From: a virus
Direction: 5' to 3' (one strand)
Virus record (IMG/VR): IMGVR_UViG_3300043427_000544
Span: 1-26,485 of that record
DNA: 26,485 nt
Shown here: in pieces, positions 6,896-19,111 of the stretch
How the letters are laid out: each line of letters starts with the position of its first letter
How positions within the stretch are numbered: the first letter of the stretch is position 1
The notes under the pieces: generated by a model
What the model was told of the DNA's origin: nothing
Seen by the model: the letters and a program-made list of their open reading frames with translations, nothing else
The model's database searches: none
Made by a program: the position numbers and the translations under genes

Positions 6896-7584
6896 TTGTA
6901 GTTTACAAATTCAGGATGTTTTGAGAACTCTTCGTAAAGCTTTAAATTTATTTTACCGCTTTGTCTTCTTTCATTAATTGATAAAGACGAATCGACGGCA
7001 AAACGCCAATCTAAAACATCAAATAAATCAAGGCTATTTTTTACATCCATAAATGGTTTAGTAGTTAATCCTAAGTCATGTATTCTTTGACTGTATTCGA
7101 CGTGTTCAAATCCCCATAAGCCAAATTGAGGCCTCATTCCTCCAGCTACCTGAAGACATATATTTTTCAAATAAAGCATACATCCATTAGGAGCGGTATA
7201 TGTCATAAATCCTTCATGTTCACCGTAAAATCTTATTGAAGGACTATAAATGATGTCATTGCTTTTTTTATCAAATGTCAAGCACAAATGATTGACTTGA
7301 GAATTAATGTAAGGCTTAAACCAATCATGTGTTTTCGGTCTTACATCGTCATCACAAAGAAAAATGTGGTCATGTTTGTCGGCTAACTCTAAACACTTGT
7401 TTTTAGCCTTAGCTATTCCAACATTTTGCTCAAACCGATAATTAGATTTTACAGGTGTTTTGGATGCATCATCAACCACATAAATAGTAGCATTGATTGG
7501 CAAATATTTTTCCCATTCAATTAATGTTTCCTCAAATACTTCTTTTCTATTGTGCGTTGTTAAACAGACTGCAATTGTTTCCAT
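6892..7584 (-). CDS. Family 2 glycosyltransferase
   Basis: 230 residues. Clear GT-A fold: TIAVCLTTHNRKE at the N-terminus, YVVDDAS (35-41) for nucleotide-sugar binding, NVGIAKAKN (54-62), then FLCDDDVRP with DDD (78-80) as the metal site. The region around GFMTYTAPNGCMLYLKN and the GLWGFEHVEYSQRIHDLG helix match the acceptor half with the ED/EH-type catalytic position. No membrane segment. It starts 25 nt inside the end of the preceding glycosyltransferase gene. Sugar and acceptor unknown; in a phage the target may be its own virion proteins, a modified base, or the host surface. Confidence 0.88.
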   Translation of the reverse strand: METIAVCLTTHNRKEVFEETLIEWEKYLPINATIYVVDDASKTPVKSNYRFEQNVGIAKAKNKCLELADKHDHIFLCDDDVRPKTHDWFKPYINSQVNHLCLTFDKKSNDIIYSPSIRFYGEHEGFMTYTAPNGCMLYLKNICLQVAGGMRPQFGLWGFEHVEYSQRIHDLGLTTKPFMDVKNSLDLFDVLDWRFAVDSSLSINERRQSGKINLKLYEEFSKHPEFVNYK

Positions 7585-8870
7585 TCTAAGAATTTTGGAT
7601 GTTCTGAAAATAAAGTTTGATTATATTTTTGATTGAATAATTCTAGCTTAGACCACATTAAATCATTTCTATCACTTATGCTTCTTTCTTTAAAGGTTTG
7701 GCTACCTAAATGATTTACTTTAGCTGAAACAACCAACATTGGAGGCACATCAATTTTCTTTAATTGCTCAACTAATGAATTGTCAGCAAACCAAAAATCA
7801 AAATCCTCATCTAATCCGCCAATCTCTTTATATAATGACCTTTTCATCATAAACGCCCAACCTGATAAATTTCTACCACATTGCCAGCCTATTTCATTTT
7901 CTGTAACATCCTTTTGCCTAAAGTCAGCCATTGCAATTGGACTCACAATTGGATAGTCGGCGGCTAATAAACCATGTAGCCAGCCATTTTTAAATATCAA
8001 ATCATTATTACAAAACATTACCCAGGGAGCATTACCACGAACTGCTCCAAAATTTAAAAATTTGTTATAATTGAATTGGGAATGAGGATTGTATGTGGTT
8101 GCATTTTTATAGAATAAATTAGTCTTCTCTTCTATTACAATACAATTGACTTCCAAACCATTTGCCGACTGAATACAACTATCAATTGCATTTTGAGTCA
8201 TTTTTGACCCTAGTTTTGAAGCGTTAGAAATAAAAATTACATCTACAATTGGATTCATACTGCTTTTTCGTTTGTTTCTTATGTTGGGGATATATTCTTG
8301 AGCAACGGTTGTTAAATCGCTATAATCATAATGATAAAGGACTTTATTTATTTTAAACTCAGACTTTAAATGTGGTTTTAAAATCTTTGCGTAACCAGCG
8401 TCCTCAGCTCTTGGTAAGCTCGGAAAAGAAACCTTAGTTGAAACTTCTTTTTTTATTACTGGTATATGATTTGGCAATCTATAATAAGCCTCCTCAGTAT
8501 TGTAATCGTTAGGAAAATCTTTAGAATAGTAACAGATTTTAGGATTGTTGCCATTTAGTGAAACAGAGACCTCAAAGGTTATACAATCTGCATTTGAATT
8601 AATTGCATCTAAAATAGTTAAAATGTAATCTGACTCAATGCGGTCGTCACAATCAACAAAGGAAATGTATTTTCCACTTGCTATGCTTATCATAAGATTT
8701 CTTTTATCTCCGAGCATAATCGTTTTGTTGTCAATTAAATATATAATCTCAACTTCCTTTTGGTCTTGCTCTGGCAATGCTTCTAATTGACTATAAAGCA
8801 TATCCAATGATTTAGGCAAAAAGGTATTTCTTCGCCCTGAAACTGAAGGGACTAAAATTGATAATTTCAT
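7560..8870 (-). CDS. Two-domain family 2 glycosyltransferase
   Basis: 436 residues with two GT-A-like halves. The first (1-200) starts MKLSILVPSVSGRR, has IASGKYISFVDCDDRI with DCDD (73-76) and PSLPRAEDAGYAKIL with the catalytic ED (156-157). The second (about 206-436) begins NPIVDVIFISNAS and has FNYNKFLNFGAVRG, then WVMFCNNDLIF with NND (288-290), and GWAFMMKRSLYKEIGGLDED typical of family 2 acceptor regions. Two domains could add two sugars in turn or make a repeating unit. The second metal triad is NND rather than DxD, so that half may be weaker or inactive. Coupled by ATGA to the methyltransferase upstream. Confidence 0.85.
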   Translation of the reverse strand: MKLSILVPSVSGRRNTFLPKSLDMLYSQLEALPEQDQKEVEIIYLIDNKTIMLGDKRNLMISIASGKYISFVDCDDRIESDYILTILDAINSNADCITFEVSVSLNGNNPKICYYSKDFPNDYNTEEAYYRLPNHIPVIKKEVSTKVSFPSLPRAEDAGYAKILKPHLKSEFKINKVLYHYDYSDLTTVAQEYIPNIRNKRKSSMNPIVDVIFISNASKLGSKMTQNAIDSCIQSANGLEVNCIVIEEKTNLFYKNATTYNPHSQFNYNKFLNFGAVRGNAPWVMFCNNDLIFKNGWLHGLLAADYPIVSPIAMADFRQKDVTENEIGWQCGRNLSGWAFMMKRSLYKEIGGLDEDFDFWFADNSLVEQLKKIDVPPMLVVSAKVNHLGSQTFKERSISDRNDLMWSKLELFNQKYNQTLFSEHPKFLEWKQLQSV

Positions 8871-9406
8871 TTAAACCAAATTATTCCTGTACCTGAATGA
8901 TGACCAATATCTGTCCAATCTGCTTTCTGCTCTGGAATTTCTTCCCAAAGTTTAGAAAGCTCATCAAAAAGCACAATATCATCCATTAAAACTATTCCTT
9001 TCCATTTAATTTCTCTTAAATGATTTAGTACTTCTTGTTCGTAGATTCCGTCGTGCATTGTGTCAATAAACAATAAATCAAAAGAATCATCAATTAATAA
9101 ATGTCCGTTTTCTGAAAGGTAGAAATTTAGATTTTTTGGCTTATAATTAAGAGAAATTTGATTTTCAATATCATAGCTTAAAACTTCATTTTCAGATTGA
9201 GCTAAACAAAAAGCCGAATGACCGCGCAAGCTTCCAAGCTCCATTATTTTTCCTTTTACTTGGCTACCTAACCAAACTAAAAGCCTGTAATGCTCAATTC
9301 CAGCTGGTTCGTCAATATATTGTAAATTGGTATCATGATTTGGAATTGATTCCATGATTTTAACCATCTCAATTGCATTAAGTGTTTTTTTAGTAGGCTT
9401 TTTCAT
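8867..9406 (-). CDS. SAM-dependent methyltransferase (class I, Methyltransf_24-like)
   Basis: 179 residues from ATG at 9406. A longer frame exists only from a TTG at 9424, which would overlap the upstream gene. Motif I is MELGSLRGHSAF (55-66), followed by LSYDI (76-80) with the acidic residue that binds ribose, DLLFIDTMHDG (110-120) and IVLMDDI (138-144). This pattern is typical of the Methyltransf_24 group, often found beside glycosyltransferases in surface-sugar clusters, where it may methylate sugars or caps. It is separated from the Cys-rich gene by 2 nt and overlaps the first glycosyltransferase by ATGA. Not a DNA methyltransferase by motif. Confidence 0.83.
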   Translation of the reverse strand: MKKPTKKTLNAIEMVKIMESIPNHDTNLQYIDEPAGIEHYRLLVWLGSQVKGKIMELGSLRGHSAFCLAQSENEVLSYDIENQISLNYKPKNLNFYLSENGHLLIDDSFDLLFIDTMHDGIYEQEVLNHLREIKWKGIVLMDDIVLFDELSKLWEEIPEQKADWTDIGHHSGTGIIWFK

Positions 9407-9408
9407 TA

Positions 9409-9585
9409 TTAAATTTCTCCGCAAGGCTTACAATTTTTCTTAAAATACATTTCGCATTGTGTTCCTTCATGATTGCTTGGCTCCTTATCAAAGTAAATTT
9501 GCATTTCGCTAGCCTTAGCCGTGTACCGCTCGCAAGAGTTTTTAAGCTTGCATCTTTGCGGCTTACACATCGTAAATGTTGCCAT
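9409..9585 (-). CDS. Cysteine-rich mini-protein (58 aa), paralogue of the 24473 gene
   Basis: 58 residues. Six cysteines at 7, 12, 18, 44, 52 and 55. The core pattern M-C-x4-C-x5-C-x-R-[YF]-T-A-K-x-S-E ... C-E-M-Y is shared with the plus-strand gene at 24473, including TAKxSE, MQ, YF and CEMY. Such spacing suggests a zinc-binding or disulfide-stabilised fold. The second copy lacks the last two cysteines (CKPC) and has a longer C-terminus. It heads the cassette of methyltransferase and glycosyltransferases, 2 nt upstream of the methyltransferase start. Function unknown. Two diverged copies in one genome argue that it is a real gene. Confidence 0.72.
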   Translation of the reverse strand: MATFTMCKPQRCKLKNSCERYTAKASEMQIYFDKEPSNHEGTQCEMYFKKNCKPCGEI

Positions 9586-9689: not shown

Positions 9690-10961
9690 TTAGGTAGTCT
9701 CAAGAAGCGCCTTAGCAGCTGCAAAAGTTCCTTTAACCAATACTGGAGTATCGTTAGCTGAGATAAATTGTACCAATCTCTGCTCGATTCTTACAGTCTT
9801 CAAGTTGTCAATAAAGTCGTCACCAGACTCTCCAATTGCTACTTGCAAACCGCTTCTCAAACGTACGTTAATAACTGAAAGGTCACCACCTACAAAGTTA
9901 GCAGCAGTTCCAGTCAAAGCGTTGGTTGGGATAATGTTTACACCCCAAGCAGTAATTCCACCTTGTGCATTGAAAGTAACGCCAGCTGGCAAGATATATT
10001 GCTTTTCAGCATCCTTCTCAGAAAGCATTAGGTGATACTGTCCAGTCTCAACAAATACTCCTGTTGCAGTTCCGTTAGCAGCTCTTACTTGAGCGATAAT
10101 TCCGTGGATAACATCCCAGTTAGTAGCAGACTCAACACCACCAGCCATTGAACCGCCAGTGAAAGTGGTAGACTTAGAAAGCAAACCAGCAAGCTGAGGA
10201 GATGTACCATTACCAGTAAACAATTGGTTTTCGATTACAGTCTCAACACGCTTCACACCATTGGTTTGGATGTAAGAAGCCAAGTAAGCGGCATCTTCCA
10301 ACATTTCCATGGAAACCTTCATGTGTACACCAATCTTCTCAACCTTAGCTCTCTGCTCTTTGTATTGTACGTCGATTTGAGTTTTCTCAACACCTTCGCC
10401 AATCATTACTGGAGTTCCTTGTTGGTCGTACTCTTCAACCCATACTGCATACTGAGTTCCGATTGCTCCAACGCTTGCGTTAGCAAGGTAAACCAACAGT
10501 CTCTGACGGATAGGAGAAACAACACCTGTAAACTCAGAGATTGTAACTTGTCCTGAAGATGCTTCGTTAGCGATTGTAGAAGCTAGAGTAATAGTTCCAA
10601 CTGACTTCTCGTTAATTTCAAATACCAAAGGAGCCTTTAGACGAGCGTTAGGCTCAGACTTTAGACGCTCAATTTCAGCTTGTACTGGAGCATAAGCCTT
10701 CATGAAAGCAGTCTTAAAATCTTCACCGCTAACTTCTTTCTCTACTGCATTCTTTTGCATTGCAATGTCCAACTTATCAAGTTGCTTTTGCATTTCTGCT
10801 GCCTCTTCTTTGGTTACTACGCCATTGAAAGACTTTAATAGGCTTTCAGCCTTTTCGAAAGCCTCATTGGCTTTAGTTTCTGCATTTGCTGCTTTTGCTT
10901 TTAAAGCTTCGCCAGCCTCTGCAATGACTGCCTTTACGGCGTCGATTGTTAGATTTTCCAT
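9690..10961 (-). CDS. Major capsid protein, HK97 fold, with N-terminal scaffold domain
   Basis: 423 residues. Residues 1-105 are highly charged, Ala/Glu/Lys-rich coiled coil (AEAGEALKAKAANAETKA), equal to the delta scaffolding domain removed by the prohead protease in HK97-type phages. From about residue 110 the sequence becomes mixed strand/helix with E-loop and P-domain features of the HK97 fold: SGQVTISEFTGVVSPIRQR, VSMEMLEDAAYLASYI (spine helix and following segment) and GVNIIPTNAL, ending LVKGTFAAAKALL. It follows the prohead protease with a 13-nt overlap and is followed by a strong terminator, as expected for a highly expressed gene. Confidence 0.93.
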   Translation of the reverse strand: MENLTIDAVKAVIAEAGEALKAKAANAETKANEAFEKAESLLKSFNGVVTKEEAAEMQKQLDKLDIAMQKNAVEKEVSGEDFKTAFMKAYAPVQAEIERLKSEPNARLKAPLVFEINEKSVGTITLASTIANEASSGQVTISEFTGVVSPIRQRLLVYLANASVGAIGTQYAVWVEEYDQQGTPVMIGEGVEKTQIDVQYKEQRAKVEKIGVHMKVSMEMLEDAAYLASYIQTNGVKRVETVIENQLFTGNGTSPQLAGLLSKSTTFTGGSMAGGVESATNWDVIHGIIAQVRAANGTATGVFVETGQYHLMLSEKDAEKQYILPAGVTFNAQGGITAWGVNIIPTNALTGTAANFVGGDLSVINVRLRSGLQVAIGESGDDFIDNLKTVRIEQRLVQFISANDTPVLVKGTFAAAKALLETT

Positions 10962-16963: not shown

Positions 16964-17143
16964 TTAGTTAATAGTTATTTTAATCGTATTAAATTTTGTT
17001 TCTGAATTAATAGCTTCACTTATTTCAATTTTAATGTCTGAGGCCAAAGCTATGTTTTTGCGCTGGCAAAACATTTGTATTTGTCTAACCAATTGCGGCC
17101 CTTTCTTTTCCTTTCTGTTTGATAAAAAATAAGTGCTTTTCAT
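16964..17143 (-). CDS. Hypothetical small protein (59 aa)
   Basis: 59 residues, MKSTYFLSNRKEKKGPQLV to KITIN, from ATG at 17143, which overlaps the methyltransferase stop (ATGA). The N-terminal half is strongly basic (NRKEKKGPQLVRQIQ) with one Cys, and the C-terminal half is acidic with a final strand (NTIKITIN). No family recognised. Fully packed between its neighbours with a coupled start. Confidence 0.58.
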   Translation of the reverse strand: MKSTYFLSNRKEKKGPQLVRQIQMFCQRKNIALASDIKIEISEAINSETKFNTIKITIN

Positions 17144-18060
17144 ATTGTTAGCTGTTTATCTAGTTCGTTGTATTGTTGAATCGCCTTAAATATTTGATAA
17201 ACTACTTGTGGGACGATTGCGTTTCCTCCAGCTTTGATTGATTCGTTTCTCCATTTAGGAAAGGTAATTCCGTCCAGTCTGTCGGAAATCCCATCATCTC
17301 CATCACAAATTGGGGCGACAGATGGGAACATTTCGAAGTCTGCTCCTGGTAATTTATTGCATCTTTTAATGAGTTTGTCATTGGGTTGTGTCCTTGTCTC
17401 GGTGCATTTCCTCTTCTCCCAGCATTCTTGTCCGATACTGTCGGAGTTGGAAGTAGTCCTCTCAATGCCATTTGGTCTAGTGGCATCGTAAATGGTTTGT
17501 GTCCCTTTTCCACTAATCTCTCCATTCTCTCGTCGTATTTGTCGAAGCTCTTTTGCTCCCTTGCTTGCGCTAGAGGAGTAGGCAACAAACCAAATTCTGT
17601 CTCTTCTGTGGGGTGCGTTAACGGCACAAGCTGGAAGTAAAAACGGTGTAACTTGGTAGCCTTCAGCTTCCAGGTCAGCCTGCACTTCGTCGAATACCAA
17701 CCCTCCATTCCAATTAGTAAGGCCGCGAACGTTTTCGCCCACAACCCAGGTCGGTTGAATCTCTCGAATTGTTCTAAGCATCTCAGGCCAGAGGTGTCTC
17801 GAATCTTCCTTTCCAAGTCTCTTTCCTGCGGATGAGTATGGTTGGCATGGGAATCCACCTGTAAGAATGTCAATTGTTCCTCGGTGAATAGTGAAATCTG
17901 TCTTGGTGATATCATTGTAGGTTATTGCTTTAGGCCAGTAATATTTTAAAACTTTTTGTCCAAATTCATTCCATTCGCAATGGAATATGTTTTCCCATCC
18001 CATCCATTCTGAGGCTAAATCGAAACCTCCAATTCCGCTAAATAGTGAGCCGTGTCTCAT
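17140..18060 (-). CDS. dcm: DNA cytosine-5 methyltransferase
   Basis: 306 residues from ATG at 18060, 1 nt after the helicase stop. (A TTG 12 codons earlier is possible.) Motif I HGSLFSGIGGFDLA (3-16), motif IV GGFPCQPYS with catalytic Cys72, motif VI ENVRGL (109-114), motif VIII PHRRDRIWFVA (150-160), a target-recognition stretch at about 161-255, and motif X GNAIVPQVV (279-287). It modifies cytosine in phage DNA, presumably to evade restriction; no cognate endonuclease was found. The segment from residue 49 to 286 also encodes another protein in the +1 frame (17202-17915), placing both reading frames under selection over 714 nt. Confidence 0.94.
   Translation of the reverse strand: MRHGSLFSGIGGFDLASEWMGWENIFHCEWNEFGQKVLKYYWPKAITYNDITKTDFTIHRGTIDILTGGFPCQPYSSAGKRLGKEDSRHLWPEMLRTIREIQPTWVVGENVRGLTNWNGGLVFDEVQADLEAEGYQVTPFLLPACAVNAPHRRDRIWFVAYSSSASKGAKELRQIRRENGEISGKGTQTIYDATRPNGIERTTSNSDSIGQECWEKRKCTETRTQPNDKLIKRCNKLPGADFEMFPSVAPICDGDDGISDRLDGITFPKWRNESIKAGGNAIVPQVVYQIFKAIQQYNELDKQLTI
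17202..17915 (-). CDS. Nested gene in the +1 frame of the cytosine methyltransferase
   Basis: 237 residues from ATG at 17915, entirely inside the methyltransferase gene. It does not look like a random shadow frame: it holds PGLWAKTFAALLIGMEGWYS, STKCRLTWKLKATK, two similar segments GLLPTPLAQ (109-117) and GLLPTPTVSDK (153-163), and SPQFVMEMMGFPTDWTELPF (200-219). From memory, a companion protein with PTPTxxD and LxPxFVxxMMGFPxxWT motifs recurs next to, or within, phage C5 methyltransferase genes. The function is unknown. It may modify methyltransferase specificity, or have arisen by overprinting. No ribosome binding site was evident; internal initiation or a leaky coupling would be needed. 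Medium-high confidence that it is translated. Confidence 0.68.
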   Translation of the reverse strand: MISPRQISLFTEEQLTFLQVDSHANHTHPQERDLERKIRDTSGLRCLEQFERFNRPGLWAKTFAALLIGMEGWYSTKCRLTWKLKATKLHRFYFQLVPLTHPTEETEFGLLPTPLAQAREQKSFDKYDERMERLVEKGHKPFTMPLDQMALRGLLPTPTVSDKNAGRRGNAPRQGHNPMTNSLKDAINYQEQTSKCSHLSPQFVMEMMGFPTDWTELPFLNGETNQSKLEETQSSHK

Positions 18061-18061
18061 A

Positions 18062-19111
18062 TTAAAATGGGGATTTAGTTTCTGTTTCAATATCAAAATT
18101 ATTTGTTCCCAAATTGGGAAACTTTTCTACTCCTGTAAATTGATAGCTTTTAACATTTGCGTTTGCAAAGTAATCGAATCCGTCTTTACCAATGTACCGG
18201 TTGCGCTTTCTGTTAAAATCAATTGTAATGTCAAAAGGTATTCCAACCAGCTTTTGTTTCTTAATCTTATCAGTCTTAATTATTACCGTTGTATCGTTAG
18301 GGTCTGTTGCTCTGTTAGGTCGCCAAACTGAAATTGTGTTGTCGGTTGAATCTGCAAACGTACCCCCCCCCTTTATTTGGTAGAGACTTGGAGGAGGATA
18401 ATTTCCGTCTTTCTCTTTTCGTGGTGTAGTTTGGTGCATCACCAAATGATAAGAAACATTATTCTTTCGAGTAAAATTAATTCTATCCATCATAAACCGC
18501 GAGGCGTATAAATGCTCTTGCTCTCCTGGGGACATCTCGTGTCTGATTTTTATGTACGGGTCTACAATTACCGCGTTAACTCCTCTCTCCCAAACTAGGA
18601 ATTCAAAGACGTTTTCAATCTGTTCTATTCTAAAGTCAGGAACTCCGTTTTTTTCAGGGTAAACAAAAAAGAAATTATCCTTTACCAAATCAAAGGCATT
18701 TAAATACTCCTCTTCGCTAAGGTCAAAATTCTTGTAAGCTCGGTCGGTACTCTTGCCAGTTATCGTGTGTATTATGTCATCGAAAAACTCGTCAGGAGGG
18801 TAATTCTCAGGACTAAAGAAAGCAAACTTCCAACCCTCATTAATTGCCTTTAAAACGCAAAGAAAAATAAGAAACTGCGACTTTCCTTCGTTGTTGTAAC
18901 CCGTCCACAAGTTAAACTCTCCAGCCTTCCAAGACCACATCTTATTTTGCAGTCCTCCGCTGGTTACCTGGTCGATATCCCTTACATAAGTTTTACTTCC
19001 AGCCTCTTTTCCCTTACGGAAATTGTTTAGCATTGACTCTCGTTGGCCAGCAAATGTCTTTATTGATGCCTCGCAAAAATCTAGGTCAAACTCTTTGTTG
19101 TGTTTTTTCAT
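18062..19111 (-). CDS. DnaB-type replicative helicase / RecA-fold ATPase
   Basis: 349 residues. Walker A GYNNEGKS (71-78), a strand-end AFFSPEN (97-103) typical of DnaB/RepA motif 1a, Walker B VIVDPYIK (181-188), sensor HQTT (226-229) and IKGGGTFADSTD (246-257), which corresponds to the DnaB motif H4 region that binds DNA. No N-terminal DnaB domain is visible, so it resembles the RecA-like domain alone, as in phage replicative helicases. The G9 run (18363-18371) codes for GGG in this motif. It follows a 100-residue gene whose end overlaps its start by ATGA and precedes the methyltransferase by 1 nt. Confidence 0.87.
   Translation of the reverse strand: MKKHNKEFDLDFCEASIKTFAGQRESMLNNFRKGKEAGSKTYVRDIDQVTSGGLQNKMWSWKAGEFNLWTGYNNEGKSQFLIFLCVLKAINEGWKFAFFSPENYPPDEFFDDIIHTITGKSTDRAYKNFDLSEEEYLNAFDLVKDNFFFVYPEKNGVPDFRIEQIENVFEFLVWERGVNAVIVDPYIKIRHEMSPGEQEHLYASRFMMDRINFTRKNNVSYHLVMHQTTPRKEKDGNYPPPSLYQIKGGGTFADSTDNTISVWRPNRATDPNDTTVIIKTDKIKKQKLVGIPFDITIDFNRKRNRYIGKDGFDYFANANVKSYQFTGVEKFPNLGTNNFDIETETKSPF

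Follow-up and report, generated by a model that had tools for sequence, protein, structure and literature searches.

The window, i.e., the entire 26,485-nt stretch of DNA analysed here, is a phage fragment carrying terminase, portal and capsid genes. On its minus strand, the open reading frame (ORF) of a C5 methyltransferase (MTase) at 17140–18096 wholly contains a second ORF of 237 codons, which starts with its own ATG and lies in the +1 frame (Table 1). The ORF coordinates and this start codon bear out the nested frame reported in a preliminary description of the sequence, which had placed it over MTase residues 49–286; the overlap stands, but the numbering was apparently counted from the TTG of the longest ORF rather than from the ATG at 18060, the likely start of the MTase. 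Elsewhere in the fragment, within positions 7560–9424 of the minus strand, a glycosyltransferase family 2 gene (7560–8870) and a possible small-molecule methyltransferase gene with weak Pfam matches (8867–9424) neighbour the capsid gene (9690–10961).

Table 1. Features of the overlapping methyltransferase locus in the window. TRD, target recognition domain.
Feature	Position	Strand	Basis and remarks
C5-MTase catalytic subunit	17140..18060	-	Frame 0, ATG, motifs I–VIII and X; ORF runs up to TTG at 18096
Nested gene, putative TRD and motif-IX subunit, 237 aa	17202..17915	-	+1 frame; phrog_1008 match; dual-coding constraint
Nested N-terminal core, aa 41–110	17586..17795	-	Alignments A1/A2; invariant wobble bases; predicted helices and hairpin
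LPTP module 1, nested aa 111–154	17454..17585	-	Sequence; module cluster 57, common to relatives and recombined
LPTP module 2, nested aa 155–198	17322..17453	-	Sequence; module cluster 56
Motif-IX-like segment LSPQFVMEMMGFPTDWTEL, nested aa 199–217	17265..17321	-	HHalign; cis equivalent in L388, L347
Frame-0 linker at the usual C5 MTase TRD place, MTase aa 184–256	17293..17511	-	pLDDT <50; poor frame-0 conservation
MTase motif X (GNAIVPQ), frame 0, overlapping the nested 3' end	17206..17226	-	Alignment A3; invariant G279, N280, A281

The frame-0 product matches PF00145 (E = 6.7e-45) and phrog_363 (E = 1.9e-73). All the motifs that had been read from the letters are present, i.e., I (FSGIGGF), IV (GGFPCQP), VI (ENV), VIII and X (GNAIVP), and motifs I–VIII and X stand together in one chain, as in a C5 MTase. 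AlphaFold models most of the catalytic domain with confidence (core pLDDT about 95), the Foldseek matches of this model in the PDB include M.HaeIII (E = 1.5e-15) and M.HhaI (E = 5.3e-15), and an MTase profile run against solved structures matches M.HhaI over motifs I–VIII. While the catalytic fold is common to these enzymes, M.HhaI and M.HaeIII carry the TRD and motif IX in the same single chain, whereas in the window MTase motif IX was not seen in frame 0 and no folded TRD is predicted. Residues 184–256, at the place of the C5 MTase TRD, are predicted to be disordered despite 121 aligned sequences, and frame-0 residues are poorly conserved across the part that encodes the LPTP modules of the nested protein.

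Homologues of the nested protein with an intact frame are found throughout the relatives. In a set of 80 viral loci collected with the MTase alignment alone, and free of selection bias from the nested sequence, every locus carries the nested frame, always in +1 phase. The same holds for all 85 viral and phage loci of a first table and all 80 genome loci from a nested-profile search, both of which were found by the nested sequence; two of these genome loci, L165 and L166, have a broken MTase frame and are thus not flagged as full overlaps. When samples of two bacterial phyla (those of G001 and G003) were searched with PF00145, three of the 50 MTase matches proved to have the nested arrangement, and these score far above the other 47 against the clade profile. 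Matches to phrog_1008 occur in 17 of 299 genomes of the Pseudomonadota (phylum of G002) and in 4 of 299 of the Bacillota (phylum of G003); each of these genome loci that the nested profile recognises overlaps an MTase in the +1 phase, and three weak phrog_1008 loci have no nested-profile match. Individual loci depart from the pattern: L088 has a frameshift in both frames, and L316, with its MTase in two frames and its nested frame in three pieces, is a frameshifted copy or a sequence error.

The wobble base of the MTase is the second codon position of the nested frame. Across 59 dereplicated MTases, third-base identity at fourfold-degenerate sites is 0.74 inside the overlap, compared with 0.48 before and 0.52 after it, such that the constraint is strong and confined to the overlap. 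It is uneven, being slight at the PCQ region and the last codons and heavy in the core and motif-IX parts, and some wobble bases are invariant (e.g., GCT in 59/59 and GGG in 58/59). Could the MTase codons simply hold open an untranslated frame by chance? The MTase and nested motifs do overlap, which means that part of the nested conservation is inherited. However, under random synonymous recoding of 161 MTases the nested frame stays open with a mean P of 0.0005, and at 148 of the 161 loci none of 300 recodings kept it open. The +1 frames of ordinary MTases, in turn, show longest open runs of only 32–120 codons and no nested-profile match. Together with the invariant wobble bases, these results make a chance frame exceedingly improbable, and it was rejected by the wobble-constraint and synonymous-recoding tests. 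The nested gene is real.

We further compared substitutions per site at MTase codon positions 1, 2 and 3 in 32 independent close pairs, position 1 being the wobble base of the nested frame. Rates at the three positions are 0.06/0.05/0.22 upstream of the overlap; within it they are 0.06/0.02/0.13 for the core as far as motif VIII, but 0.31/0.17/0.16 for the LPTP modules and 0.14/0.06/0.04 for the motif-IX segment. The site that varies most is therefore the wobble base of the MTase where the catalytic part is encoded, whereas over the LPTP modules and motif IX it is MTase position 1, as expected if the nested frame is preserved there. Amino-acid identity of the nested protein likewise exceeds that of the MTase only in the LPTP and motif-IX parts. 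By these computations both frames are under selection, with the nested frame dominating over the TRD/motif-IX segment; nested-frame variation is not neutral, and the early suggestion of two conserved proteins in one stretch of DNA is borne out by this and by the nested homologues.

The nested protein matches phrog_1008 (E = 1.4e-17), a family labelled 'DNA methyltransferase' that is matched as well by the TRD portion which L388 carries in cis and by gene 40 of L346; the label is silent on a TRD/motif-IX role and on the overlap with a catalytic gene. A literature match for phrog_1008 turned out to be phrog_10089, which shares the prefix only. No match to the nested protein was found in Pfam or NCBIfam, nor to the nested profile in a PDB sequence search of solved structures. 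Its AlphaFold model alone is poor (pLDDT 61, pTM 0.32), suggesting helices, a hairpin at residues 79–99 and a helix in the first LPTP module, and structural comparison of this poor model gives a best Z of 3.7. The N-terminal core, which shares its DNA with the MTase frame as far as motif VIII, bears a conserved pattern of CLE, W, C.L.WK and R.YFQL. When the nested profile was compared with 41 ordinary C5 MTases by HHalign, the sole match placed the segment LSPQFVMEMMGFPTDW on motif IX (P = 0.0024), a short and weak match of 24 columns and 12% probability; in agreement with this placement, L388 and L347 have the equivalent segment in cis, ahead of motif X. Most nested proteins contain one to four LPTP modules. 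The 475 distinct modules fall into 214 clusters, one module occurs in 24 neighbour contexts, and the modules are recombined into 177 distinct arrays in 240 loci (near-copies included). Such shuffling resembles an exchange of specificity modules, by which analogy the LPTP arrays may determine specificity.

Sequence comparison indicates that the same parts occur fused, split or nested among relatives, in four forms. In the nested form, represented by the window, the TRD and motif IX are in the +1 frame. In the split form, found in Arthrobacter phage Eesa (L346, with the break after motif VIII) and other actinophages, motif X joins them there. In the TRD-only form (L347 and, in part, L365–L377), the LPTP modules alone are in the +1 frame, with motifs IX and X in frame 0. 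In the one-frame form (L388, L389), all parts lie together; the chain of mycobacteriophage DotProduct (L388) runs through motifs I–VIII, five LPTP modules, motif IX and motif X, and matches phrog_363 and phrog_1008 together. Wherever the TRD is out of frame in these forms it is in +1, never +2. An odd case is L366, whose halves share one frame with a stop between them. All forms group in a single clade (SH-aLRT 100), from which 16 ordinary MTases are separate. In this quick, midpoint-rooted tree, nested forms lie on both sides of the deepest fork of the clade and the fused L388 sits beside the split L391 on very short branches, for which reasons the fused form looks derived. The fused DotProduct gene (L388:70–2061) and the two overlapping genes of Phanphagia (L391:1017–2043) have very similar catalytic domains, which suggests that one architecture can turn into the other through a small indel.

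An ATG lies within 15 codons of the column of the window's nested start in 159 of 161 loci (a raw count, against a background of ATG at 4% of codons). For seven Bacillota loci, in which the nested ATG was picked by eye, SD-like motifs precede it in six, against a background of 13.6% of positions (P = 4e-5). Both frames are annotated in some Paenibacillus phage records. Alternatively, +1 ribosomal frameshifting near motif VIII could join the nested segment to the catalytic half as a single-chain enzyme with no separate start, an idea that draws on the existence of fused single-frame forms and on the fact that nested, split and TRD-only forms all have the TRD in +1 relative to the catalytic part. 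We consider it unlikely, as the nested frame is constrained well upstream of such a junction, the internal ATG stands almost always near the same place and is preceded by SD-like motifs in Bacillota, and the product in the nested form would be devoid of motif X, which is in frame 0.

We therefore favour, with a probability of roughly 80%, a reading in which one C5 MTase is made as two polypeptides from the same DNA, the nested product being a TRD/motif-IX subunit that acts in trans. Frame 0 would give a catalytic subunit with motifs I–VIII, the disordered linker and motif X, while the +1 frame, translated separately from its own internal ATG, would give an N-terminal docking region, tandem LPTP modules in the role of TRD, and motif IX. 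Once assembled, the two subunits would methylate phage DNA as an active enzyme, probably countering host restriction and thereby protecting the phage genome. A competing possibility is that the nested frame encodes a de novo overprinted protein of its own kind, for example a regulator or an anti-restriction factor, with nothing but its DNA in common with the MTase. In accord with such an origin, the protein was never free-standing in the loci examined, and its N-terminal core yielded no cis counterpart in this analysis. De novo overprinting, however, would leave the protein without homologues outside the overlap, whereas its LPTP and motif-IX parts are found in cis between motifs VIII and X in L388 and L389, and the catalytic frame is without exactly these parts. 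We accordingly regard an overprinted protein as very unlikely, and the nested product is probably not an unrelated companion. A conserved, non-chance frame near C5 MTases had been proposed at the outset and holds, but the term 'companion' needs sharpening, since the nested protein looks like the missing TRD/motif-IX half of the same enzyme.

Three Bacteroides loci speak against an obligate pair of subunits, because their MTase frame contains three TGA codons with the nested frame intact, which the two-subunit reading does not predict unless TGA is read through. These are L165 and L166 (MTase frame from 2814) and L350 (from 1811). Two of the three TGA codons stand at conserved Trp positions, and the nested frame is open over 335–353 codons. 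Either the catalytic gene has died while the nested gene was retained, or TGA is subject to readthrough.

Two-polypeptide C5 MTases have precedents. In M.EcoHK31I, the gene of the small polypeptide lies inside that of the large one in another frame. Its specificity is YGGCCR. The large polypeptide of M.EcoHK31I carries motifs I–VIII and X and the small one motif IX, with the predicted TRD placed on the large subunit, and M.AquI is split into two polypeptides, with the motifs apportioned around the variable region (PMC3404938). At the level of sequence, the window has the M.EcoHK31I kind of motif split, with motif IX on a separate small polypeptide, although its motif-IX match is weak and its TRD would reside on the small rather than the large subunit; following the published motif layout (PMC3404938), we file it as a putative further member of that kind. 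The M.AquI type of split, in which the small subunit carries motifs IX and X together, is instead seen in the actinophage forms L346 and L351; the window differs in its fully nested small gene and in keeping motif X on the large subunit. Plasmid searches returned few places, none labelled M.EcoHK31I or M.EaeI, and no description of the clade-wide overlap pattern was found among the open-licence PMC papers searched. Long dual coding had been called rare, a view that needs tempering by the M.EcoHK31I precedent and by the frequency of the arrangement in this MTase clade.

More tentatively, the window may represent a broad phage and bacterial MTase clade that keeps its halves in different frames, with the nested half made of swappable mini-TRDs, each LPTP module having its own target; specificity would then evolve under dual coding, and the architecture would switch by single frameshifts. 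We hold this wider proposal to be possible rather than probable.

Taken together, full dual coding over about 700 nt turns from a supposed rarity into a recurrent, testable arrangement in phages and bacteria of several phyla. phrog_1008 gains a likely function, and the findings suggest that a number of 'DNA methyltransferase' annotations are half enzymes. The clade offers a natural system for studying the movement of enzyme halves from one reading frame to another and the exchange of recognition modules.
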